Source of the DNA: Chitinophaga pinensis
GTDB taxonomy: Bacteria > Bacteroidota > Bacteroidia > UBA7662
Reading direction: 5' to 3'
Assembly (NCBI GenBank): GCA_945874665.1
Contig: CAMCHJ010000016.1
Coordinates: 1-44,792, forward strand
DNA length: 44,792 bases
Shown here piece after piece: positions 24,721 through 43,051 of the stretch. A program made the position numbers and the translations under genes. The notes beneath the pieces were generated by a model, which was given only the letters and a program-made list of their open reading frames with translations, was not told the DNA's origin and did no database searches. The number at the start of each line of letters is the position of its first letter. Positions within the stretch are counted from its first letter, which is position 1.

Positions 24721-24792
24721 GGCCCCGTAGTTCAACGGATAGAATAGAAGTTTCCTAAACTTTAGATGTGGTTTCGATTACCGCCGGGGCTA
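24721..24792 (+). tRNA. tRNA-Arg (anticodon CCT)
   Basis: A 72-base cloverleaf. The acceptor GGCCCCG pairs with CGGGGCT (a G:T at the terminal pair), the anticodon stem GAAGT pairs with ACTTT, the loop TTCCTAA gives anticodon CCT, and the T-arm reads GTGGT / ACCGC. Discriminator A; CCA not encoded. It decodes AGG. It sits exactly at the change from G+C-rich core to A+T-rich accessory DNA. Confidence 0.93.
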
Positions 24793-24816
24793 CAAGTGTA
24801 TGTAAATCAATTAGTT

Positions 24817-25108: not shown

Positions 25109-26008
25109 TCAACTCTTAAGCATGAAGTTCGCTCCGTTCGAAAAAAGCTGTAACTCCATGTTGTAATCGAGTGAAATGGTATGATTTGTACCACTATATA
25201 AGTTCTTTCGGTTAATCAAAATGGCTTCACTCAAATTTTCACTGTGCTTGAGCTCAGGCATACCGTAATAGCTAGGACGAACCAACATGAAGCAGAAATC
25301 GGCCATTTGGCCGATAAGGTCTGACGCTTCCAAATCACGTAGCTCTGGGAAGCGATTTTTTTTTCGCGTTTCTACCGTACGCTTTACTCCTGTAGTTATG
25401 AGTACGGGTGATTTAAGTGATTTTGCCAGCGATTGCAGGGCTGTCATGTTTTCTTCCCAAGCTTGTTTCGAAGAACTCCCTTTTTGTTTTTTCAGCAAAT
25501 GAAAGTCGTCGATCACGAGCATGCTGATGTTTGTTTGATTGCCTATGGCGAGGAGTTGCTGTTCCAACTCCTGCACAGTGCCTTGATGGCTCAATAAAAT
25601 AAGCTTGTCTTGCGCTAACTTGTTTAGAAAGGGGTGCGAGATAATTTGATTTTCTTCGGCTAGGTCAATTGCAGCTGTTTGGTATAGATGCCCTGGTGTT
25701 TGTGTTGCAATACAAATTAGTCTTTTTAACACAAACGAACTGTCATCATTACAACTAACCAAGATGATTGAGGAATCGACTGGAAGGACGGATACCTGAT
25801 TGTAAACGACGTTTAGTGCGAAAATGGTTTTTCCCATCCCTGGCCTTGCTCCAAGGGTAGTGATGGTGCCCGCTTCAAATCCACCCCCTCCTAAGGCTTT
25901 GTCAAGGGCTGAGTAGCCCGAAGAGTGGGGTTTGGTTTCTTTCCTAAGTCGTTCCCTTAATTGTTGAAGTTCTTGTTTTAAGAGTGCACTTGTTTTTAAG
26001 TTGTCCAT
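25109..26008 (-). CDS. Stand-alone DnaB helicase C-terminal-like (RecA-fold) ATPase
   Basis: This 299-residue protein matches the C-terminal ATPase domain of replicative DnaB helicases but lacks their N-terminal domain; only ~30 residues of charged helix precede the core. SGYSALDKALGGG leads into Walker A GARPGMGKT at ~54-62. Walker B is MLVIDDFHLL, and an arginine-finger-like stretch appears near RDLEASDLIGQMADFCFML. It may be a helicase remnant, a phage or mobile-element loader, or a signal-transducing ATPase. It is the first island gene after the tRNA, on the minus strand, 258 bases downstream of the peptidase-like gene, with a possible small ORF between. Confidence 0.8.
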   Translation of the reverse strand: MDNLKTSALLKQELQQLRERLRKETKPHSSGYSALDKALGGGGFEAGTITTLGARPGMGKTIFALNVVYNQVSVLPVDSSIILVSCNDDSSFVLKRLICIATQTPGHLYQTAAIDLAEENQIISHPFLNKLAQDKLILLSHQGTVQELEQQLLAIGNQTNISMLVIDDFHLLKKQKGSSSKQAWEENMTALQSLAKSLKSPVLITTGVKRTVETRKKNRFPELRDLEASDLIGQMADFCFMLVRPSYYGMPELKHSENLSEAILINRKNLYSGTNHTISLDYNMELQLFSNGANFMLKS

Positions 26009-26135: not shown

Positions 26136-26252
26136 TTAATTGGCGGCATGATGCTCATGAGCCTGGATTGCTGTTTTGAACCCCTCATAAATCAAAGCGT
26201 ATATACTTTGATTTTCGGAAGGAAGCGGTTTAAAGTCCGGATCGTTGAGCAT
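26136..26252 (-). CDS. Possible small protein, 38 residues
   Basis: A short reading frame starts 14 bases behind the stop of the membrane peptidase-like gene on the same strand. It encodes a 38-residue product beginning MLNDPDFKPLPSENQ and ending AHEHHAAN, with a predicted amphipathic helix in IYALIYEGFKTAIQ. The composition looks protein-like and the spacing fits the operon. No known family. It may be a genuine small protein or a chance frame. Confidence 0.45.
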   Translation of the reverse strand: MLNDPDFKPLPSENQSIYALIYEGFKTAIQAHEHHAAN

Positions 26253-26266
26253 TGCTTGGATAAATA

Positions 26267-26770
26267 CTATTTCATTTGCTGGCAGATCCATAACAAACAC
26301 TCTTTTTCATATTTATTAGCGACCTTCCTTGCTTCGATTTCAAAAGGATTGTTTTCGTAGCCAATCTCTCTCTGATACCTTGTATATAAGGAATCAAAAT
26401 CTTTGTTTTTCTGTCGGGCATGCACGTACTCGTGAATTACGGTGTTAGTCACATTCAACACATTTTGGTGGTTGTTGACATAGATTACGCATTCATGACT
26501 TCGTGATGTATAAACGCCACTCCGCTTTTTATGTGGGTAGTAACTCAGTATTACATTTGGTTTTCGAGTGTTTTTGTGAGATATATGTTCGTGGCACCAG
26601 TCAACGACCAACTGGCAAAAGGTGGTTTTCTTAATAGGGAAAGCATCAAGTGGAAGTGCTGCTATTTTGCGTAGCACCCACCATTCACGTACACCCATGA
26701 TTACGCCAATAAGACCGAGTATACCACAGCCAATCATCAGTATTTCGAGGAAGACCTTATTCGCTAACAT
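26267..26770 (-). CDS. Membrane-anchored HExxH metallopeptidase-like protein
   Basis: This 167-residue protein has an N-terminal hydrophobic segment (residues ~5-28) and a soluble domain with a zinc-binding motif HEYVH at 113-117, followed by a possible third ligand in EIEARKVANKYEKE. This is a small gluzincin-like arrangement, as in peptidases of the M48/WLM type, but I cannot name the family. The domain probably faces the cytoplasm or the periplasm next to the membrane. It lies 12 bases downstream of the PH-domain gene in a tight minus-strand operon, which suggests joint action at the membrane. Confidence 0.7.
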   Translation of the reverse strand: MLANKVFLEILMIGCGILGLIGVIMGVREWWVLRKIAALPLDAFPIKKTTFCQLVVDWCHEHISHKNTRKPNVILSYYPHKKRSGVYTSRSHECVIYVNNHQNVLNVTNTVIHEYVHARQKNKDFDSLYTRYQREIGYENNPFEIEARKVANKYEKECLLWICQQMK

Positions 26771-26782
26771 AGTTTAGATAAT

Positions 26783-27250
26783 TTAAAACGAATGAAAAAC
26801 ATCAATATCGCGTATGCCGTTTTCTTTTCTTTTTGACTTGGCTTTATTTTGCAAGTATTCAACGTAGGTGTGCCCATCCGCTACGGCATAGAATTTTATG
26901 AATGGTTTAAATTGTTCTGAGGTAGTTACGGAAATTACGGACAAGCCAAAAAATCTCATCCATAGGGGTCGTTCAATTTTGATGGATTTAATTCTGAAAT
27001 AGTTCACAGATTCTTCTGTTACATTCAAAATGCCCCGCTTTTCAATAACCCTGTCATTGTAGAATTGATACTCCCAAAACAGAACATCTAAAACGCTCCA
27101 GATCAAAAGCAAGAAAAAAAAACCTCCTATAATTGGATGGACAAACAGCCCTCCAATAGAAAGCAAGAGCCAGCCAATATTGAGATATTGAGAGGGCGAT
27201 GTTGTTGAGAGCAGATTGGGATTTTTCATGATTTCTAAATGTTTATCCAT
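26783..27250 (-). CDS. Membrane protein with bacterial PH-like domain
   Basis: This 155-residue protein shows two hydrophobic segments near residues 24-37 and 40-58 and then a bacterial pleckstrin-homology-like domain of the bPH2/YdbS type: FYNDRVIEKRGILNVTEESVNYFRIKSIKIERPLWMRFFG is its core, here recognised by YNDRVIEKRGIL and RIKSIKIE. Such domains are found in small membrane proteins of unclear role. It starts 2 bases behind the preceding gene and ends 12 bases before the peptidase-like gene. Confidence 0.75.
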   Translation of the reverse strand: MDKHLEIMKNPNLLSTTSPSQYLNIGWLLLSIGGLFVHPIIGGFFFLLLIWSVLDVLFWEYQFYNDRVIEKRGILNVTEESVNYFRIKSIKIERPLWMRFFGLSVISVTTSEQFKPFIKFYAVADGHTYVEYLQNKAKSKRKENGIRDIDVFHSF

Positions 27251-27252
27251 AC

Positions 27253-27711
27253 CTATTGTTTTACTACCTCATGAGAAATAAAGGCCATTTCTTTAAGGAA
27301 TAGCGAGCCTCCTTTTGCTTTTTCATCCTCAATTAAATTTTCGAATGCTGACCTGATCAAGCCCAATTGATCAACTAGTTCGCTATCGAAAGCAAAAATT
27401 ATTTGATCGGTTTTAAAGTATTTTTCATTCGCTAATAAAATGTCTTGTGCACACTTTGCCACATTTAAAGTTTCACTAATCGGAATTAAAGTAATGCTGT
27501 GGCTAGGATACAGGCAACCAGCCTCTATTTTAGAATTAACGGCATCACAGAAATGTTTGACATCATAAACATTTCGATTGAGGTAAACTGAAAGGAGTTT
27601 TGAGCATATAGCATTTTTATAGAGTGCTGGGCATACGATGTGTATTTTATTTGTCTTTATGGCCAAGAGCATCTCATTTGAATACAATGCTGATTCACTG
27701 ATTTTTTTCAT
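27253..27711 (-). CDS. Unknown protein in the HsdS-like operon
   Basis: I do not recognise this 152-residue soluble protein. It has no signal or membrane segment, four cysteines and an alternating alpha/beta pattern (IHIVCPALY, SHSITLIPIS, QIIFAFDSEL). Its start overlaps the end of the HsdS-like gene by 4 bases and its end is 2 bases from the PH gene, so it is part of one operon. Confidence 0.7.
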   Translation of the reverse strand: MKKISESALYSNEMLLAIKTNKIHIVCPALYKNAICSKLLSVYLNRNVYDVKHFCDAVNSKIEAGCLYPSHSITLIPISETLNVAKCAQDILLANEKYFKTDQIIFAFDSELVDQLGLIRSAFENLIEDEKAKGGSLFLKEMAFISHEVVKQ

Positions 27712-28559
27712 AATTGATTAAGGTTAATTGCCGACAATTCTAGATTCCACAGATTGAATTTCTCTGCCACGCTGTTTTGGGCTTTTTCAATGTTGTCCAA
27801 AATAGTTTTAACACGTTCTTGGTTTTCTGCACGTTCTGGCACGGCTATTTTTAATTTCATTAGCTGTTCTTTTTGAAGTGCAGGTAGTATGGATGCGGAT
27901 GACCTTGCCTTGTTGGTGGATCTGATTTCATAAATTTTTTCAGCCTGCTGTAATTTTTGGGTTTCATAAATCGAAAACAAATCCGTTTTCACAACATGCT
28001 TGAGTACATACTTCAAAAATTCAAGGTCTATTTGTAAGGCATTCAGCACATTTGTTTTAGGGCTGAGCACAAAAAAGTGAGGCGTTGGTACAAATTGAAT
28101 ATCAAAATCAGTAACACCATCAAATATGTCAATCAACTTGGGAATGCCTTTGTTATTAATCAAAAGATCATTCTTTTGCAAAATATGCTTCTGATTTACC
28201 GGAGGAAGCTCCATTGCCCCGCTGACCATTCTTTCCTGTTCCCTATCGGTTATCTTTCTTATTTCTGCAAGTGATTTTAAAGTGCCGTCTATTTCCCTAA
28301 GCATCGATGGGCGAAGAAACACCACCTCTTTCATGTTCACTCCATGTGGTCTTTCTTTTGAATACCGTAATTCCGGCACACCGTATCTTACCTCAAACAA
28401 ATCTCCTACTTGAAATAACTGCACAGCTGCATATAGCTGTCGAATCCTTTTCTTCATGTCTTCATGTGAGGTGCTAATCAACTCATAGTCTGTTATTTCA
28501 TATTTAGAGTTGTCGAGCGCCTGAGGCATAAAATGAGAATCTATCAATAATAAAAACAT
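27708..28559 (-). CDS. Half-size HsdS-like target-recognition protein
   Basis: This 283-residue protein resembles one half of a type I restriction specificity subunit. The recognition domain shows FQVGDLFEVRYGVPELRYS, then ILQKNDLLINNKGIPK, a long variable region and the closing motif LPALQKEQLMKLKIAVPE (compare L..L..I.IP of HsdS). A coiled-coil-like C-terminal helix follows (ENQERVKTILDNIEKAQ). Full HsdS proteins have two such repeats; this has one. No hsdM or hsdR gene is in the window, so it is not a normal restriction system here. It heads the minus-strand operon and shares an upstream region with the divergent DUF2779 gene. M11 at 28529 is a possible alternative start. Confidence 0.72.
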   Translation of the reverse strand: MFLLLIDSHFMPQALDNSKYEITDYELISTSHEDMKKRIRQLYAAVQLFQVGDLFEVRYGVPELRYSKERPHGVNMKEVVFLRPSMLREIDGTLKSLAEIRKITDREQERMVSGAMELPPVNQKHILQKNDLLINNKGIPKLIDIFDGVTDFDIQFVPTPHFFVLSPKTNVLNALQIDLEFLKYVLKHVVKTDLFSIYETQKLQQAEKIYEIRSTNKARSSASILPALQKEQLMKLKIAVPERAENQERVKTILDNIEKAQNSVAEKFNLWNLELSAINLNQL

Positions 28560-28562
28560 TTT

Positions 28563-28593
28563 TTTGTTCGTTTAGATGATAAATGTATATTTG
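28563..28593 (+). promoter_or_regulatory. Consensus-like Bacteroidota promoter toward the DUF2779 gene
   Basis: TTTG at 28563-28566 and TATATTTG at 28586-28593 are 19 bases apart, a perfect consensus match. The transcript would have a leader of about 230 bases before the ATG at 28830. Confidence 0.65.
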
Positions 28594-28603
28594 TGCGCAA
28601 ATA
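28588..28603. promoter_or_regulatory. Palindrome in the divergent promoter region
   Basis: TATTTG and CAAATA form 6-base arms around TGCG. It overlaps the -7 box of the plus promoter and lies ~30 bases in front of the minus-strand operon. It could be an operator for both, though no regulator gene is adjacent. Confidence 0.35.
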
Positions 28604-28829
28604 CAATAGTTATGACCGCAAACATAATTAATAATTCGGATTCTACAAAGAAAATTCTCTACAGGAGCTTCCGCGCGCACAGGCCATCACGATGCTGCCA
28701 AGTGAAGGCGGTATTTGGCACGGGCAAATTGATATGGACGCAACCCGAGTTAGCTGTTGGTTTAGCCGATTTGGATAAAACAAGTTATTTTACTTTCGTA
28801 TATAGTTCACAAGCTAAAAACTAAAAACC

Positions 28830-30860
28830 ATGAGTCGCTACCTTACCAAATCCAGATTTAAAGAGGCACTAGCGTGTATAACAAAATTATATTATACCAA
28901 AAAGAAGGAGGAGTATGCCGATACACAATTGGCCGACCCGTTTTTGGAGGCACTGGCCAAAGGGGGCTTTCAGGTGGGCGAATTAGCCAAATATTACTTT
29001 ACCGATGATCCTGTTGCCGAAAATATCACCATCAATACCCTAAACTATGAGGCAGCGCTTGCCGAAACCGAGCGTAGGTTAGCCATGCCCGGCAGGGTGG
29101 TAATTGCAGAGGCTGCCTTTAAATTTGAAAACTTATTTATCAGGGCAGATATTGTAGTGAAAGAAAATGACACCCTGTATTTATATGAAGTGAAGGCAAA
29201 ATCGGCCAGTGACGAAAATGAGGATACCAGTACATTCTTGTCGAGCCGTGGTGACAGGGTAAGCTCCGATTGGGCGCCCTATGTGTATGACTTGGCATTT
29301 CAAAAACATGTTATGGCACATTGTGCGTTCAGTTGCAATTACCAGATAAAAGCACATTTAACGCTGGCCAATAAAGATGCTGCAGCGAGCATCGATGGAT
29401 TGAATCAGTTTTTTAAAATAATAAAACAGGATGAAGATGGGTATAAAGTTGTAGCTCCTGCAGGACTTAAGAGAAATCAATTAGGCAACCAAATTCTTAA
29501 AAACATCAATCTGGATGAAGTGATTGAAAAAGTGTGGAATGTCTTTGCCGTACCTACTGATATTGCTGCTAACATGTCGTTTGTTGACTTTGTAAATCAC
29601 GCATCCGGCATTTACCATGGGAATGAAAGGGAGTTTACTGCCATCGGCAAAAAATGTAAAACTTGTCAATACATCAATAAAAACAAGGAGAGCGGATTAA
29701 AAAGCGGATTTCATGAGTGCTGGAAAGAACATACCCAATACAGCGATGAACTTTTACAAAAACCATTAGTTACGGAACTATGGGGTGGTAAAGCCGGTTC
29801 GCAATCGATTACCCAAAAGCTGATTGAAAATAGCATATACTTATTAGAAAACACGAAAGAGGAACTTATTGCTCCCAAAGCTACATCTCAGCCAATAACG
29901 GGTTTGTTGCCTTTAGAAAGAAGAATGACTCAAGTAATTAAAGTGCGCGATAACGATACCTCAAGTTATTTTGAAGCGACAGGGTTAAAGGATGAAATGT
30001 ATAAATGGACTTATCCATTACACTTTATTGACTTTGAAACCAGTATGGTGGCACTCCCTTTTCATAAGGGCCTAAAACCTTATCAAGGCATTGCATTTCA
30101 GTTTTCGCACCATGTGATGCACGAAAACGGAACTGTAGAGCACAAGAGTCAATTTTTGGCAACAGAACCTGGCGTGTATCCTAACTATGATTTTGTAAGG
30201 GCACTAAAGCATGAGCTGGAAAATGACCAAGGTACAATATTCAGATATCACAACCACGAAAACAGCTACCTGAATATGATAGCCACACAATTGGAAACAA
30301 ACCCCGATGCACCCGCAGATGCTGTAGCATTGGTTGAGTTTATTAGAAAAATTACACACAGAAAAATAGGTAAAGACACTGTTTGTGGTGAGCGTAATAT
30401 GGTCGATTTGTATGAATTGGTGCTGCAGTATTATTATTCCCCAAATTCCAAAGGCAGTAATTCATTGAAACAAATTTTGCCGGCTGTAATTAAAGACAGT
30501 GCTTACCTGAGACAAAAATATGGCACTAAGGGTATGTATGGAAAAGAACTAGCCGTGAAAAGTTTAAATTTTGATGACCACGTGTGGATTGACCCAAACA
30601 AAAACCATGACCCATACAAAACGTTACCAGCGGTTTTTGATAATTACAACCGAGAAGTACTGGATGAATTAATAAAAGATTTTGATGAGGTCGGGGACGG
30701 AGGCGCAGCCCTCACCGCTTACAACTATTTACAATTTGCAGAGGTGCCACACGAGCAGCGAGCCCTTATAGCCGATGCCCTGTTACGCTACTGTGAGCTA
30801 GATACCCTCGCTATGGTGATGATTGTTGAGGGGTGGAGAGAGATGATGAATAACCTTTGA
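28830..30860 (+). CDS. DUF2779 protein: Cas4-like nuclease fused to a DEDD exonuclease domain
   Basis: This 676-residue protein combines two nuclease domains. The N-terminal half looks like a PD-(D/E)XK fold of the Cas4/RecB type, with D107, E120 and K122 (RADIVV...LYEVKAK). Cysteines at 16, 276, 279 and 297 sit as in the iron-sulfur cluster of Cas4. The second half is DUF2779, an RNase H-like DEDD domain: D401/E403 in HFIDFET, H474-E477 in YHNHENSYL, and D658 in YCELDTLA. It probably degrades or processes nucleic acid. It starts a plus-strand operon with two unknown genes and is divergent from the HsdS-like operon. No CRISPR array is near. Confidence 0.82.
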   Translation: MSRYLTKSRFKEALACITKLYYTKKKEEYADTQLADPFLEALAKGGFQVGELAKYYFTDDPVAENITINTLNYEAALAETERRLAMPGRVVIAEAAFKFENLFIRADIVVKENDTLYLYEVKAKSASDENEDTSTFLSSRGDRVSSDWAPYVYDLAFQKHVMAHCAFSCNYQIKAHLTLANKDAAASIDGLNQFFKIIKQDEDGYKVVAPAGLKRNQLGNQILKNINLDEVIEKVWNVFAVPTDIAANMSFVDFVNHASGIYHGNEREFTAIGKKCKTCQYINKNKESGLKSGFHECWKEHTQYSDELLQKPLVTELWGGKAGSQSITQKLIENSIYLLENTKEELIAPKATSQPITGLLPLERRMTQVIKVRDNDTSSYFEATGLKDEMYKWTYPLHFIDFETSMVALPFHKGLKPYQGIAFQFSHHVMHENGTVEHKSQFLATEPGVYPNYDFVRALKHELENDQGTIFRYHNHENSYLNMIATQLETNPDAPADAVALVEFIRKITHRKIGKDTVCGERNMVDLYELVLQYYYSPNSKGSNSLKQILPAVIKDSAYLRQKYGTKGMYGKELAVKSLNFDDHVWIDPNKNHDPYKTLPAVFDNYNREVLDELIKDFDEVGDGGAALTAYNYLQFAEVPHEQRALIADALLRYCELDTLAMVMIVEGWREMMNNL

Positions 30861-32861: not shown

Positions 32862-33017
32862 ATGAAATAAATCAAATGCCCACACTGCAACGAGCCTATA
32901 AAATTGACGAAGCAGGCCAGCGTGACAAAATATTTTAACAGATTTCAACGGGCTAACCTCTCCAATCTCTCTATCTTAGTCGAAACCAGAAACCCAATTG
33001 CCAATGTCGTATAAAAA
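32862..33017 (+). pseudogene. Possible broken zinc-ribbon ORF
   Basis: The frame reads ATG AAA TAA and then stays open for ~47 codons: IKCPHCNEPIKL and a basic tail up to VV-stop. CPHC is a typical half of a zinc ribbon. A single base in the third codon would restore an ORF starting MK-x-IKCPHC. It ends 14 bases inside the start of the DUF262 gene. It may be a nonsense-inactivated small gene or chance. Confidence 0.35.
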
Positions 33018-35307
33018 CACGAACCTCCTGGAGATCATCCGTAAAATTGAAAGTCACCAGATTTGCCTGCCCTCCATCCAACGGAAATTCGAATGGAAAC
33101 CAGACCGCATCGAAATGCTGTTCGATTCCATCCTCAACGATTACCCGATAGGCACTTTTCTCATCTGGGAGATCCAGCAGAAAAACGTGAGCAAATTCCG
33201 TTTCTATGAGGTCAACAATGAATACGATTTTGATGAAGGGAAATGGCAGAAACAACGCACCCAGGCCACGGCACTGCCGGAACTATGGGCGCTCCTCGAT
33301 GGACAGCAGCGACTGACCTCCATCAGCATCGGCCTGCAGGGATCCTACACCCATTCATCCCGCGGAAAAAAGATCAAACGAAAACTCTATTTCAGTCTGT
33401 TCGACCGCCCCGGAGAGGAAGACTACCGATCCTTCCGGTTCTTCGCAGATGGCGATCACCTGAAAGATAAAAACAACATTTGGATCCCCGCCAGCCTCTT
33501 CGTTAACGAACTGGAAGTCTTTCATAAAACCTTACCAATGGAAATCGAAGGCTATTCGCAAATCGAAGAACATATAAAACTCTGCATCGATAATAAATCA
33601 GATGACATCAAATCCCGATGGGAAGGATGGACATCCAAAAATGAATACCTGAAGATAGGCACCCGTATCCACCAGTTCGCCAATAAGATCGCCAAGCCCG
33701 ATGCATTCAGCTATTATCTCATCAGCAACAACATAGACCTCGATATCTGCAACGAGATCTTCGTGCGGATCAATAGCGGTGGTGTCAAACTTTCCAAGGC
33801 CGATCTACTTTTCTCTACCGTAGTCTCCGAATGGGAAACCGGCCGGGAAAAAATCGATGAACTCATCAAAGAGGTCAAAAAAATCGGTTTCGAGATCGAC
33901 TCGGATTTCGTGATGCGCACCTGCCTCTACCTCACCTATAGTCCGATCCTCTTCAAAGTGGATACGTTCAACGACAAAACCATTCATAAGATCATCTCAT
34001 TGTTCAACAGCACCGAAGAAAGAATTGGCATCTACGATACCGTTATCCAAACTTTTCAGTTCCTGAAAATGAAGCTGGGCCTGACCGACAAGATGCTGAA
34101 ATCCACCAACGTGGTCATTCCGGTTATCCATCACCTGTTCCACGGAGGAAAACTCGGCGATGAATCTGTGGAAGAGGTACAGAAATTCATCTACATCTCG
34201 CTGCTCCAAAAAACCTTCGGCTCACATGGCGATACGCTGCTCAAAGATCTTAGAGAAGGAGTTTCGGCCGATGAGAGCTTCCAACTCAAAAACGCTGCGT
34301 TTAGCTATGCGAAGATCATCAGCAAAATTGGCGAAGACACCAAACGATATCTCTACAATGTAAATATAGCCTGGGCGGAAAAACTGCTGACCACCAAATA
34401 CGGTGCCGATGCCTGGCTCATCCTCTCGCTTATCTTCGGTAGCCTGCGGTATGAATACCAATCGTACGACCAGGATCATCTGCATCCGAGATCAAAATTC
34501 ACGAAGAAGAATTACCCCGGCGACCTCAAAGCGATCGCGGATAAGATCGATGCCATCCCCAGCCTCACCTTCTCCACTCCGGAGGAAAATCGATTGGATA
34601 AAAAAGCACATTCGCTGAAAGCGTATGTAGACGAGATCCTGCCCGTTCGCAATCCAGAATGGTTAGCACAATACCGGACCTTTAATAAGATCGATGAAAC
34701 CAGTTCGCTGGAGCTCGCGGATTTCCCCGCCTTCTTCGAGACCCGTAGGCAAAAAATGCTGAACATCCTGGTGGATAAACTCCAGCTCAATGCGAATGCA
34801 CCTGAGCCGGAACCGGACCCAGAAGATGTGTACATCGATGAACCGGATGAGGTGTTAGAGGCTATGGAAGAATTCGCTCCTGTGGAGGAGGCTGATCGGC
34901 GAGAGGAGCTGGAAGATGGGATTGCTGATACTACGGAAAACCGGCGGCCACCAGGATACATCGCAGAAACAACTTTAGCAATTCTCAGATGTGCAACGAA
35001 AATCAACGCATCAGTGCCATCCCGCATAGTGGAAGCCGATTTAACTCTATATCAGAGAAAAGGCATCGTGGCATTGCAATTTAATTATGCCAATTACAAC
35101 TATGTTTTTGAAGTCCCATTTACTCGGCCTTATTTAAATAAAGAAGCTGGAACATTTGCCAATTTACTGAACCTAAACCAATCGAGAACGCAAAATAACG
35201 AACAATTTCAAGCCTTAATTGAAAGAATCACTAACCAGTATACCGCAAATCCTGCCATTGAGATAGCGTGTCAAATTCAGTTAGTGAGGAATGAGGAAGT
35301 AAGGTAA
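33004..35307 (+). CDS. DUF262/HNH nuclease protein (GmrSD-like restriction)
   Basis: This 767-residue protein has the DUF262 (ParB/Srx-like) domain at the N-terminus: LPSIQRKFEWKPDRIEMLFDSIL, YPIGTFLIWEI and LLDGQQRLTSI, as in GmrS. A helical middle carries RINSGGVKLSKADLL. An HNH-like motif follows (YDQDHLHPRSKF, ~residue 495). The family includes type IV restriction enzymes against modified DNA. ATG 33004 is preferred to the TTG two codons earlier. Most of the gene is richer in G+C and in CTG/ATC codons than its neighbours, while the last ~110 residues, behind an acidic Pro/Glu linker, are A+T richer. This suggests a recent import or fusion. It stands alone as a transcription unit. Confidence 0.82.
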   Translation: MSYKNTNLLEIIRKIESHQICLPSIQRKFEWKPDRIEMLFDSILNDYPIGTFLIWEIQQKNVSKFRFYEVNNEYDFDEGKWQKQRTQATALPELWALLDGQQRLTSISIGLQGSYTHSSRGKKIKRKLYFSLFDRPGEEDYRSFRFFADGDHLKDKNNIWIPASLFVNELEVFHKTLPMEIEGYSQIEEHIKLCIDNKSDDIKSRWEGWTSKNEYLKIGTRIHQFANKIAKPDAFSYYLISNNIDLDICNEIFVRINSGGVKLSKADLLFSTVVSEWETGREKIDELIKEVKKIGFEIDSDFVMRTCLYLTYSPILFKVDTFNDKTIHKIISLFNSTEERIGIYDTVIQTFQFLKMKLGLTDKMLKSTNVVIPVIHHLFHGGKLGDESVEEVQKFIYISLLQKTFGSHGDTLLKDLREGVSADESFQLKNAAFSYAKIISKIGEDTKRYLYNVNIAWAEKLLTTKYGADAWLILSLIFGSLRYEYQSYDQDHLHPRSKFTKKNYPGDLKAIADKIDAIPSLTFSTPEENRLDKKAHSLKAYVDEILPVRNPEWLAQYRTFNKIDETSSLELADFPAFFETRRQKMLNILVDKLQLNANAPEPEPDPEDVYIDEPDEVLEAMEEFAPVEEADRREELEDGIADTTENRRPPGYIAETTLAILRCATKINASVPSRIVEADLTLYQRKGIVALQFNYANYNYVFEVPFTRPYLNKEAGTFANLLNLNQSRTQNNEQFQALIERITNQYTANPAIEIACQIQLVRNEEVR

Positions 35308-35467: not shown

Positions 35468-36406
35468 TTAGTTAGGTTCTTCTGTGACTTGGTTTATTGG
35501 AAGCTGTAATTTTTTAAAATAATCAAGTACAGTCTTAATGTCCATCCGAAGGGCGATTTGGATAATTCTGAATATTTCTTCTCTAGGCATTGCTTCTTTT
35601 TTGCCAATTTTTTGCAGGGCATTTTCAATGTGCTCTTCGTGAAAACCGCCTTCAAAACTGCGCAAGCAATCCAGTATGAGCCATGGACCTAACTCATAGT
35701 AATCATATTGTTTGTAAACCTCTTCCGGAAAAACGCCAGTCTCTTTCATTTTCTTTTTTACATCCATATTTAATTTGAGGAATGCAGTTTTGGCTTGTTC
35801 GATGGAAAGAATCTCGTCAAAATTTCCTAGTAGAAGGTAATAGAGATCAGCAAAACCTTCTTCTCGGAACTTAAGAATAAAGTATTTATAAAGTTCCGAA
35901 GTCTCACCCGATGATTTATAAACAGAAGCTTTTTCAATTAATTGATGGTCAAGCATATGCAAGAGTTCGTGTTCCCACGTAAATAGGACTTTGGGATTTG
36001 CTGATAAATCTTGCCAGTTTTTTGAAAGATAGTGTGCCATTAATCTTTGGTCTGCATTGAATTGATACTCACCGTGTGCTGGTTTAGATTTATCATAATG
36101 ATAGCCAGCTATAGCGTGTTCGTTCCCTGTAATCCCGAACAAATCTATCCATACAAAGAGGCCTTTTATGATGTGATTTTCGAATAAGGGGTACAGGTTA
36201 TTAAAAGCAGTTTTTACAATTTCTGTTGTTTGTTTTTCTATTGATTGATACAACAAAACATTACAATCATTGTAAATAACCCCCATTCCATCAGCATCGT
36301 CATCATGGTTGAAGCCGGGTATCCACGATACCCATTCTACTTCTTTTGCTGAGTCATCGTCTAATGGATGTGGCGATAAATAAGCAACTATATTCACATC
36401 TTGCAT
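35468..36406 (-). CDS. HExxH metallopeptidase-like protein
   Basis: This 312-residue cytoplasmic protein has a zinc motif HELLHMLDH at residues 146-154 and a downstream REEGFADLYY at ~181-190, whose Glu could be the third zinc ligand, as in gluzincins. The surrounding sequence is not a family I can name. An N-terminal ~100 residues of acidic sequence precede it, and a helical C-terminus follows. It is a single gene on the minus strand. No neighbour of known function tells its substrate. Confidence 0.72.
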   Translation of the reverse strand: MQDVNIVAYLSPHPLDDDSAKEVEWVSWIPGFNHDDDADGMGVIYNDCNVLLYQSIEKQTTEIVKTAFNNLYPLFENHIIKGLFVWIDLFGITGNEHAIAGYHYDKSKPAHGEYQFNADQRLMAHYLSKNWQDLSANPKVLFTWEHELLHMLDHQLIEKASVYKSSGETSELYKYFILKFREEGFADLYYLLLGNFDEILSIEQAKTAFLKLNMDVKKKMKETGVFPEEVYKQYDYYELGPWLILDCLRSFEGGFHEEHIENALQKIGKKEAMPREEIFRIIQIALRMDIKTVLDYFKKLQLPINQVTEEPN

Positions 36407-38829: not shown

Positions 38830-39270
38830 ATGAAAAAATTAACTTTCTTTTCAATCATTCTCCTTACATCTGGATTTGTAAATGCCCAATCAAACGTTAG
38901 AAGAGGATATAGCTCATCTGGAGACATTCTTTACAATTGGGACGGTAAAAATCTTCGTAAAGGGTACAGCTCTTCTGGTGACATTCTAATAAACTTCGAT
39001 GGGAAAAATATCAGAAAAGGATATAGTTCTTCTGGAGATATTTTATACAACTGGGACGGTAAAAATTTTCGTTCAGGATACAGCTCTTCAGGCGATATCA
39101 TATATAACTGGGACGGGTTGAATATGCGGCAAGGTTATAGTTCATCAGGCAATATTGTGTACAATTATGATGGCAAAAATGTACGCCAGGGATATAGTTC
39201 GTCTGGCGAGATATATTACAATACTGATGGTAAAATCCCTATTGCAGTGTTAATCTATATAATTCACTAG
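38830..39270 (+). CDS. Secreted protein of six 19-residue repeats
   Basis: After a signal peptide (residues 1-19, ending FVNA) the 146-residue protein is built of six tandem 19-residue units at 26-139 starting GYSSSG and carrying YNWDGKN. A short hydrophobic tail (VLIYIIH) follows. The DNA repeats differ at many synonymous sites, so the protein unit is kept by selection and is not a fresh duplication. Such repeats would form a beta-solenoid or beta-hairpin array. I do not know a function. Confidence 0.8.
   Translation: MKKLTFFSIILLTSGFVNAQSNVRRGYSSSGDILYNWDGKNLRKGYSSSGDILINFDGKNIRKGYSSSGDILYNWDGKNFRSGYSSSGDIIYNWDGLNMRQGYSSSGNIVYNYDGKNVRQGYSSSGEIYYNTDGKIPIAVLIYIIH
38905..39246 (+). repeat. 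Six 57-base coding repeats
   Basis: Tandem units within the secreted repeat protein, each coding one 19-residue GYSSSG...DGKN unit. Unit boundaries are 57 bases apart from 38905. The last unit is degenerate at its end. Confidence 0.85.
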
Positions 39271-40339: not shown

Positions 40340-42007
40340 ATGAAACCAATGCAAATACCGGAAGAAAATAAGCTTTTAAGAAGCATTACAAGGCTTTACG
40401 AGCACAAGGAAAAAATGATGCAGTCAGAGGCTGTCCTCTTATCCATGAACCAGGATATTGAAGTGGTAGCCTCTTTTTTAGGCCTAGACAAGAATTATGC
40501 TCCGCTGATAGCCGTAATGATTTGCGAGCAACTTATCGGCGAAAACAGCCCTTACAATCGACTCATGAAACTCATGGGATATAGTGCTTATGATATTGTA
40601 GCTATGGAACGCGTATTAAAGGGATGGGTAAAGAAACGCTGGATAAGGAGCAAACGGCACAAGTATTCTGGAAGGTCTATGAGTACTTATGAGTTTGAAA
40701 AACGCTTCATGGATGCCGTTCATTTTGAAGATGTAAAAAAGCTAGCTGATCCACACATAAATGACCCTTACTTTGCGATGCTTGAGTTAAAAAAGAAAAT
40801 GCAACGCTACCTTGGAGAATTTGAATTTGATGAGTTGACAACAAATATTTGTGAACAAGCAGCCGAATCTTTGGATATAAGATTTATCGCTCATATCCTA
40901 AAAGATGAACAGTTAATTGATCCTGAAAAGGCAGTCATGTTGTGGTTAGGCGTTGAGTGGATCAGTGGAAAGGAAGAGTTTGATTTTGAACAAATCATAG
41001 AAATGTTCACTCAAGACCCCAGTTATGTGTACTGGTTTAAAAAACGCCTAAAGTCTGGGGAGAGTAAATTGCTATCTAATGGCTTAATACAAATGATTAA
41101 GCCTGATTTTAGTGATTTTTCTCTGGTCCGATTAGGTGAAGAACTCGTTGACATGCTACTAGAAGTAAAGGTCGATACGGCATCAAAAACGCCAGCATTA
41201 CGGTACAGTAAGTTGCTAGAACCAGATAATCTGCCGCAGCAGCAATTGTTTTTCAATAAATCTATGGAAGTCGAACGCGACCGCGTTGAAAAGATGCTGA
41301 CCGAACCAGCATTCTCTGACTTGATGCTTAAATTCAAGGAAAATGGGTTTCCAATGGCATTGACAATGCTTTTTCATGGGCAACCTGGAACTGGAAAAAC
41401 GGCATTAGCACATCAATTAGCCAAGTTTAGTAATCGCTACGTATGCCAAGTAGATATTTCGAATATTAGAGACATGTGGGTAGGGGAATCCGAAAAAAAT
41501 CTGAAACGCGTTTTCAAGGAGTATGCCTACTTATCAAAAAAAACCGACAACATTCCGATTTTGCTATTTAATGAAGCGGATGCCATTTTTGGCGTTAGAA
41601 CCAGTGTTGCAACCGCAGTTGATCAAATGAATAACTCTTTGCAGAATATATTGCTACAAGAATTGGAAGATTTTGAAGGCATTTTCATAGCGACAACCAA
41701 TCTAATTAAAAACATCGACGCTGCTTTTGATAGACGATTAGTATATAAGTTGCATTTTGAATTACCCGATTTAACAACCGCATCAAACATCCTAAATAAT
41801 GAGTTTGCTGGATATAATCCAGAATTTTTAGGCTTAATTTCTCAAAAGTATCGATTGTCTGGGGGTCAGATCAGCAATGTTAAGCGTAAACTACTTACAG
41901 AGTCATTGCTTCAGAATTGTGCCACGCATCCAGAAGAGTTGTTAATTGAATTTCTAGCAAAAGAAAGTGGTTTTAGGAACAGAAAAACCAATATAGGGTT
42001 CAATTAA
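40340..42007 (+). CDS. AAA+ ATPase with an N-terminal helical domain
   Basis: This 555-residue protein has ~310 residues of helical N-terminal sequence and a C-terminal AAA+ domain. Walker A is GQPGTGKTALA (~residues 352-362), followed by MWVGESEKNLKRVF. Walker B reads ILLFNEADAIF, with Asn in place of the usual Asp, and sensor 1 is FIATTNLI. An arginine-finger region follows in DAAFDRRL. It is related to the classical AAA clade. Its substrate is unknown. It is 55 bases upstream of a WYL regulator, a pairing that suggests a regulated accessory system. Confidence 0.85.
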   Translation: MKPMQIPEENKLLRSITRLYEHKEKMMQSEAVLLSMNQDIEVVASFLGLDKNYAPLIAVMICEQLIGENSPYNRLMKLMGYSAYDIVAMERVLKGWVKKRWIRSKRHKYSGRSMSTYEFEKRFMDAVHFEDVKKLADPHINDPYFAMLELKKKMQRYLGEFEFDELTTNICEQAAESLDIRFIAHILKDEQLIDPEKAVMLWLGVEWISGKEEFDFEQIIEMFTQDPSYVYWFKKRLKSGESKLLSNGLIQMIKPDFSDFSLVRLGEELVDMLLEVKVDTASKTPALRYSKLLEPDNLPQQQLFFNKSMEVERDRVEKMLTEPAFSDLMLKFKENGFPMALTMLFHGQPGTGKTALAHQLAKFSNRYVCQVDISNIRDMWVGESEKNLKRVFKEYAYLSKKTDNIPILLFNEADAIFGVRTSVATAVDQMNNSLQNILLQELEDFEGIFIATTNLIKNIDAAFDRRLVYKLHFELPDLTTASNILNNEFAGYNPEFLGLISQKYRLSGGQISNVKRKLLTESLLQNCATHPEELLIEFLAKESGFRNRKTNIGFN

Positions 42008-42061
42008 TCGATGATTTCATTAGTTTTGATGAGTAACTTTCCACTAGCAAAAAGGACAAAT

Positions 42062-43051
42062 ATGCCGACAAACAAAAATGCTTATTTGAGATTCCGTATT
42101 ATTGACGAATGTTTAAGGAATAAAAACAAGTACTTTAATCGGCATTCTATCGCAGACAGAATCAGTGATAAACTTGGCTATAATGTCTCTGTAAACGCTA
42201 TCGATAAGGATATACGAGCTTTGAAAGAGGAGTTTGACGCTCCAATAAAGTATGATAAATTTCAAAACCGTTATTATTACGCTCACAGCTTTTCATTAGC
42301 AAGTGTAGAACTAAATCATGATGAAGAGGATGCCCTCAACTTGAGCCTATCTATCCTTGATATACTAAAAGAGACAAAATATGCGAAATCGTACAAGAAT
42401 TTAATCCAAAAACTAGTTACACGAGCAACTAAAGGAGAAAATGATGGCATAATTGAATTCGAACAAACGCCAGTTCAGCTCGATTCTAGCATATTCGATG
42501 CGTTGTACGATGCAATCAAAAGGAAAGAAGCGCTCGTAATCACGTACCAAGTGTATGGAAAGCAAAGGAAAAATCACACCGTTTCTCCATACATGATAAA
42601 GGAGTACCGCAACCGATTTTATTTAGTCGCGAGGGAGCATATGACTGAAAATGACAATGAGTTAATTTTTTGTTTCGGGATGGATAGAATAAAGTCAGTA
42701 GCAAAAGCAAAAGAACCTTTTTTGGTCACCCACGGATTTACTCCAAAAGACTTTTTTAAACACAGCTTTGGTATTTCCAGAGATTTGCAGAAAGAACCAA
42801 TGACATTAGTTTTAAAATTCAACAATCTTATTGCGCCGTATATACTGTCTAAACCATTACATCCTAGTCAGCAAATAGTAGAACAAACAGAAGCTTATTT
42901 AACGGTTATCATTGTGGTTTTTGAATCTTTTGAATTGAACATGGCTATTCTTGGCTATGGTTCTAGGGTAGAGGTTTTGTCGCCAAAGAGCTACATTGAT
43001 TACCTTAAAAATGAAATAAATGGCATGAATCAGATATATAGAAAAAGATAA
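42062..43051 (+). CDS. WYL-domain transcriptional regulator
   Basis: This 329-residue protein has an N-terminal winged helix-turn-helix (YFNRHSIADRIS, VNAIDKDIRALKEEF) and a C-terminal WYL domain with VITYQVYGKQRKNHTVSPYMIKEY and RFYLVAR, and a C-terminal WCX-like part. WYL regulators bind nucleotides or nucleic acid and often control defence genes. The ATG at 42062 (MPTNKNAYLRF) is chosen as the domain start; an upstream ATG at 42011 would add 17 residues. It follows the AAA+ gene. Confidence 0.85.
   Translation: MPTNKNAYLRFRIIDECLRNKNKYFNRHSIADRISDKLGYNVSVNAIDKDIRALKEEFDAPIKYDKFQNRYYYAHSFSLASVELNHDEEDALNLSLSILDILKETKYAKSYKNLIQKLVTRATKGENDGIIEFEQTPVQLDSSIFDALYDAIKRKEALVITYQVYGKQRKNHTVSPYMIKEYRNRFYLVAREHMTENDNELIFCFGMDRIKSVAKAKEPFLVTHGFTPKDFFKHSFGISRDLQKEPMTLVLKFNNLIAPYILSKPLHPSQQIVEQTEAYLTVIIVVFESFELNMAILGYGSRVEVLSPKSYIDYLKNEINGMNQIYRKR

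Follow-up and report, generated by a model that had tools for sequence, protein, structure and literature searches.

Gene organization of the locus

The window analysed here, i.e., the whole stretch of DNA of 44,792 nucleotides, carries four open reading frames on its minus strand, named A, B, C and D in the order of reading, between a tRNA-Arg(CCT) gene and a divergently oriented gene of a DUF2779 nuclease (Table 1). According to the ORF coordinates, A and B overlap by 4 bases, B and C are separated by 2 bases and C and D by 12 bases, and the tight layout described in an earlier note on this DNA was thereby confirmed. The span of 26136-28559 given in that note holds for the four genes but not for its left end, since the stop codon of D ends at 26267 and positions 26136-26266 are non-coding DNA downstream of D. 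In codon usage, the own frame of each of the four genes was the best or joint best when compared with the other five frames; the margin, clear for A and for B, was small for D and for C, whose own frame tied with one reverse frame. Genes A to D form a real operon that is probably cotranscribed, as suggested by the spacing of the genes.

Table 1. Positions of the features discussed in the text (window numbering)
Feature	Position	Strand	Basis
tRNA-Arg(CCT), left edge of the low-GC island	24721..24793	+	ARAGORN
DnaB C-terminal (RecA/KaiC-like) ATPase	25109..26008	-	
D: N-terminal membrane anchor and HExxH...EAR zinc-peptidase-like domain, 167 aa	26267..26770	-	HEYVH
C: membrane PH protein (bPH_2, membrane-flanked domain), 155 aa	26783..27250	-	PF03703
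B: 152 aa, without sequence family, putative macrodomain-like fold	27253..27711	-	ORF, AF2 model
A: orphan single-TRD HsdS-like protein, 283 aa	27708..28559	-	ORF
Divergent intergenic region between A and DUF2779, 270 bases	28560..28829	.	inverted repeat TATTTG-N4-CAAATA at about 28590
DUF2779 nuclease (Cas4-like PD-(D/E)XK and RNase H-like DEDD), divergent neighbour of A	28830..30860	+	PF11074, E=5e-24
HEC-05 homologue	32998..35307	+	
Soluble HExxH protein	35468..36406	-	
Direct repeats within predicted Bflower_3 protein gene	38892..39233		
IetA/TRIP13-like AAA ATPase, then WYL-domain regulator	40340..43051	+	

The HsdS-like protein A

Protein A is best read as a divergent, single-TRD protein resembling half of an HsdS subunit. 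The Pfam Methylase_S profile (PF01420) matched it below the 22-bit cut-off (E=0.2, 12.3 bits), the PADLOC Specificity_I profile matched with an E value of 5.7e-5, and a PDB sequence search with A, B and D gave no credible match. The AlphaFold2 model of A, built from a two-row alignment, was of low confidence (pLDDT 53, pTM 0.50), and Foldseek found nothing significant for it (best E 0.16). In the VIA-align comparison, the first 34 rows were all TRDs of HsdS or adenine methylases (N6-MTase) with Z scores from 7.8 to 4.9, after which Z dropped to 2.7; the model aligned with the HsdS structures 1ydx (Z 7.8, rmsd 3.9, 113 aligned) and 1yf2 (Z 7.0, rmsd 4.0, 112 aligned). The evidence that A has a TRD fold is moderate, since the model is of low confidence. 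As in the half-size form of HsdS, one TRD-like domain is followed by a long helix in A, whereas type I HsdS proteins have two TRDs and conserved regions, and A has half their length. The weak Methylase_S match, the Specificity_I match and the TRD matches of the low-confidence model together bear out the description of the first gene as half-size HsdS-like in the earlier note. For Esub1, a TRD-like protein that the structure comparison of A had matched, nothing relevant was found in the literature.

The HsdM profile PF02384 had no match in the own genome (96% complete, 35 contigs), nor in G007, a 99% complete genome that is home to the relative of A described below, while it matched in 13 of 14 control genomes. 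PF01420 likewise had no match over the cut-off in either genome, and neither HsdM nor HsdR was found among the annotated window neighbours of A-D. Because a 96%-complete genome has no PF02384 match and no PF01420 match over the cut-off, A is, within the limits of the assembly, a true orphan, and the earlier claim of a target-recognition protein without HsdM stands genome-wide. Type I restriction-modification requires an HsdM partner, and no match to one was found in this genome. That A might belong to an ordinary split type I locus, which the earlier note named as an outcome that would overturn its reading, was ruled out by the absence of HsdM and of any other HsdS over the cut-off. Searches with PF02384 and PF01420 found type I genes in some members of the family (G009 and G020), and a profile made from the two A sequences did not match the regular HsdS genes that sister genomes carry. 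Protein A is a new, divergent HsdS variant in a new gene setting.

Proteins B, C and D

Even with the threshold set at E<=10, Pfam gave no match to protein B, and searches of 395 phylum genomes, of plasmids and of viral contigs yielded no relatives. Its low-confidence, single-sequence AF2 model (pLDDT 55) placed macrodomains in the first five rows of Foldseek (best E 2e-4), and VIA-align gave Z up to 9.4 with an rmsd of 3.8 over 134 of the 152 residues aligned to a macrodomain. Macrodomains and N-terminal domains of M17 aminopeptidases made up nearly all of the top 50 structures. Three rows bearing SPX-domain titles aligned to B over residue numbers that match those of macroH2A rows, and are presumably macro-domain fusion partners. 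The model resembles macrodomains over most of its length, but there is no sequence match, and inspection of the sequence found none of the usual glycine-rich ADP-ribose loops, so that ligand binding by B is doubtful. B may have a macrodomain-like fold, as predicted from the model, without the glycine-rich ADP-ribose motifs. No paper combining a macrodomain, a specificity subunit and phage defence was found in the literature search.

Protein C is a member of the bPH_2 'membrane-flanked domain' proteins by both Pfam and PHROG: it matched PF03703 with E=2.6e-10 (40.8 bits against the 22-bit cut-off) and phrog_3707 'membrane-flanked domain' with E=1.3e-16, and a hydrophobic region lies at about residues 23-61. 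Protein D carries HEYVH at residues 113-117, a downstream EAR as candidate for the third ligand and one N-terminal hydrophobic segment. The matches of D to DUF3920 (PF13058; E=3.1e-5, 24.6 bits, below the 27.3-bit cut-off) and to the phage metallo-protease family phrog_87 (E=0.004) were weaker, and D is, judged from its motifs, a HExxH zinc-peptidase-like protein of putative activity. The naming of C as a membrane PH protein and of D as a membrane HExxH protein in the earlier note agrees with these results: the bPH_2 match of C lies above the cut-off and its hydrophobic region is present, and D has both the motif and the N-terminal segment.

The tRNA-linked genomic island

The G+C content falls from about 0.51-0.56 to 0.36-0.42 right after tRNA-Arg(CCT) and remains low over most of the way to the end of the contig. 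In a genome of the same genus (G010, L126), different DNA follows the tRNA-Arg gene, whose 3' half occurs a second time about 2 kb further on. On contig C19 of the own genome, a degenerate copy of the tRNA-Arg 3' half (L100 10086-9932) abuts a D-like fragment (L100 10082-10237), which is broken by several stops and is 51% identical to D; the fragment still keeps IHEYVH and EAR, and A, B and C are absent beside it. The tRNA-Arg gene, the drop of G+C and the repeated tRNA 3' halves indicate that the A-D operon is cargo of a variable island (window 24721-44792) at a tRNA integration hotspot.

Several other genes were found in the island. Its first gene after the tRNA encodes an ATPase that has the DnaB C-terminal (RecA/KaiC-like) domain but not the N-terminal one, on the same strand as D and 258 bases from it. 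An intact homologue of HEC-05, a PADLOC candidate defence gene (GmrSD/DUF262), is a separate gene on the other strand from A-D, and the shared island is the only link seen between it and A-D. Also present are an IetA/TRIP13-like AAA ATPase and, next after it, a WYL-domain regulator, and a gene of a predicted 6-fold beta-flower (Bflower_3) protein contains five direct repeat copies with a spacing of 57 bases.

Distribution of the four genes

The set A-B-C-D was found once and did not recur in the 296-395 phylum genomes, plasmids, phages or viral contigs searched. A single relative of A was found among 21 order genomes, in G007; the phylum sample of 395 genomes, the plasmids, the phages and the viral contigs gave no other. 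A contig profile search with the two-sequence alignment of A returned only the own record of G007, whose relative of A in turn had no relatives in plasmids and is not accompanied by B, C or D. Relatives of C, mostly weak, occurred in 20 of 296 phylum genomes and on plasmids, and the nearest three examined (in G202, on a Klebsiella plasmid and on a Pseudomonas plasmid) have other neighbours. In the 296-395 phylum genomes, the only relatives of D were the C19 fragment and one 48-residue N-terminal match. No relatives of C or D were found in viral contigs.

The earlier note had coupled A to the membrane PH protein and the peptidase as one system and had proposed a gene-neighbourhood search. Such a search gave no co-occurrence of the four families: the set was found once, and the relative of A stands without B-D, so that recurrence does not support the proposed coupling. 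Since A, B and D are very rare, with few relatives to examine, the missing recurrence counts weakly against a four-gene system and does not refute it. The statement that no described system has this set held for the material searched, in which none matched. A set seen only once is not enough to establish a new system.

The DUF2779 nuclease as a candidate partner of A

The relative of A in G007, a genome of another genus of the same family as the host, lies on VHAX01000027.1 and is 25% identical to A with no long conserved region. It overlaps a DUF2779 gene by 4 bases, and this DUF2779 gene is 80% identical to that of the window; the orientation differs, being divergent in the window and overlapping in G007. 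Apart from A and DUF2779, the compared stretches of the two loci have in common only a soluble HExxH protein, which differs from D and lies further off. A is far more diverged than its DUF2779 neighbour, as would be expected if recognition domains change while the nuclease is kept. The soluble HExxH protein is 35% identical between the window and G007 (L004 5519-6514, plus strand), carries the zinc-peptidase-like motifs WEHExxHxLD...REEG, and had no family match and no plasmid relatives.

DUF2779 has been grouped with the 3'-5' exonucleases of the RNase H-like superfamily and is fused to a Cas4-like DUF83 nuclease domain (PMC3985635). The window gene is a full-length member of the DUF2779 (PF11074) nucleases, whereas members elsewhere are mostly near WYL or unrelated genes and rarely near an S protein. 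Of roughly 33 DUF2779 loci, about 31 supplied the 111 flanking proteins that were scanned, of which Methylase_S matched 2 and WYL 10. WYL-domain regulators were the most frequent neighbours of the sampled DUF2779 genes (loci L040-L074). Since Methylase_S occurs in just 2 of the 111 neighbours, DUF2779 does not need an S protein; it is a general island gene, and its link to A may be plain island linkage. The A-DUF2779 link is suggestive and comes from two cases only.

In the intergenic region between A and DUF2779, no remnant of a G007-type A gene was found upstream of the window DUF2779 gene. The Bacteroidota-type promoter motif matched near 28584, but its matches in the window were no more than in shuffles, and sigma-70-like promoter matches in the window were fewer than in shuffles.

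Interpretation

In the main reading, to which we assign a probability of about one third, A reads DNA without a methylase and has the DUF2779 nuclease as its most likely working partner, and the products of the other three genes are accessory proteins or independent cargo. By analogy to half-size specificity subunits, A would dimerise as a half-HsdS and read a palindromic bipartite site; engineered half-HsdS dimers are active with HsdM (PMC6158711). A would then mark or load the DNA, and the DUF2779 nuclease, recruited or directed by A, would degrade it. C and D may sit in the inner membrane, and B may bind a ligand or a protein through its macro-like fold, so that B, C and D could be accessory proteins at the inner membrane or a separate island cargo.

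We hold it equally probable that genes of the island came together in the operon by chance, with A as a solitary HsdS remnant and B-D functionally unrelated to it. The set was found once and has no gene set in common with loci elsewhere, the variable island contains unrelated genes, and the D-like and tRNA fragments point to heavy turnover; on the other hand, four intact frames with operon-like spacing and coding-like codon use speak against this, the relative of A is also intact in a genome likewise without HsdM, and the catalytic motif of D is kept in the diverged paralogue on C19. A system as envisaged in the earlier note, in which A would recognise foreign DNA by its sequence and set off a response at the membrane by way of B, the PH protein C and the peptidase D, appears unlikely. 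Its attraction lies in the overlap and short gaps on one strand, the membrane segments of C and D, the HExxH of D, the defence-island setting and the predicted macro-fold of B, which could add a nucleotide-ligand step, but the set is not recurrent, the relative of A is without B-D and the relatives of C are neighboured differently. In a broader form, with or without DUF2779, an orphan half-HsdS together with macro-fold, membrane PH and membrane zinc-peptidase proteins would be a methyltransferase-free defence giving a membrane-sited response to invading DNA, which we consider rather improbable.

Comparably improbable is that A acts as a mobile specificity subunit or decoy, which would work with or titrate the HsdM of any host that the island enters and so change or block type I restriction. 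Orphan HsdS genes are reported in several papers, the activity of the engineered dimers with HsdM (PMC6158711) fits this view, the island looks mobile and the family members G009 and G020 have type I genes; yet the current host and G007 lack HsdM matches, A is below the PF01420 cut-off and the two-sequence profile of A misses the HsdS genes of sister genomes. Very improbable is a broken type I locus with M and R genes on unassembled parts of the genome: an assembly of 35 contigs at 96% completeness leaves some room for it, but neither PF02384 nor PF01420 over its cut-off was found here or in the 99%-complete G007, and the immediate neighbours of A are neither M nor R genes.

Should the operon be no more than cargo of the island, its first gene would still be a clear example of an orphan HsdS-like gene that is intact while HsdM is undetectable in the genome. 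If A works without a methylase, as the main reading supposes, a type I target-recognition protein would have been given a new use as an independent DNA reader, possibly partnered by a Cas4-like/exonuclease protein, and this would be a new architecture for sequence-specific restriction. A methylase-free A, if true, also raises the question of how self DNA is spared.
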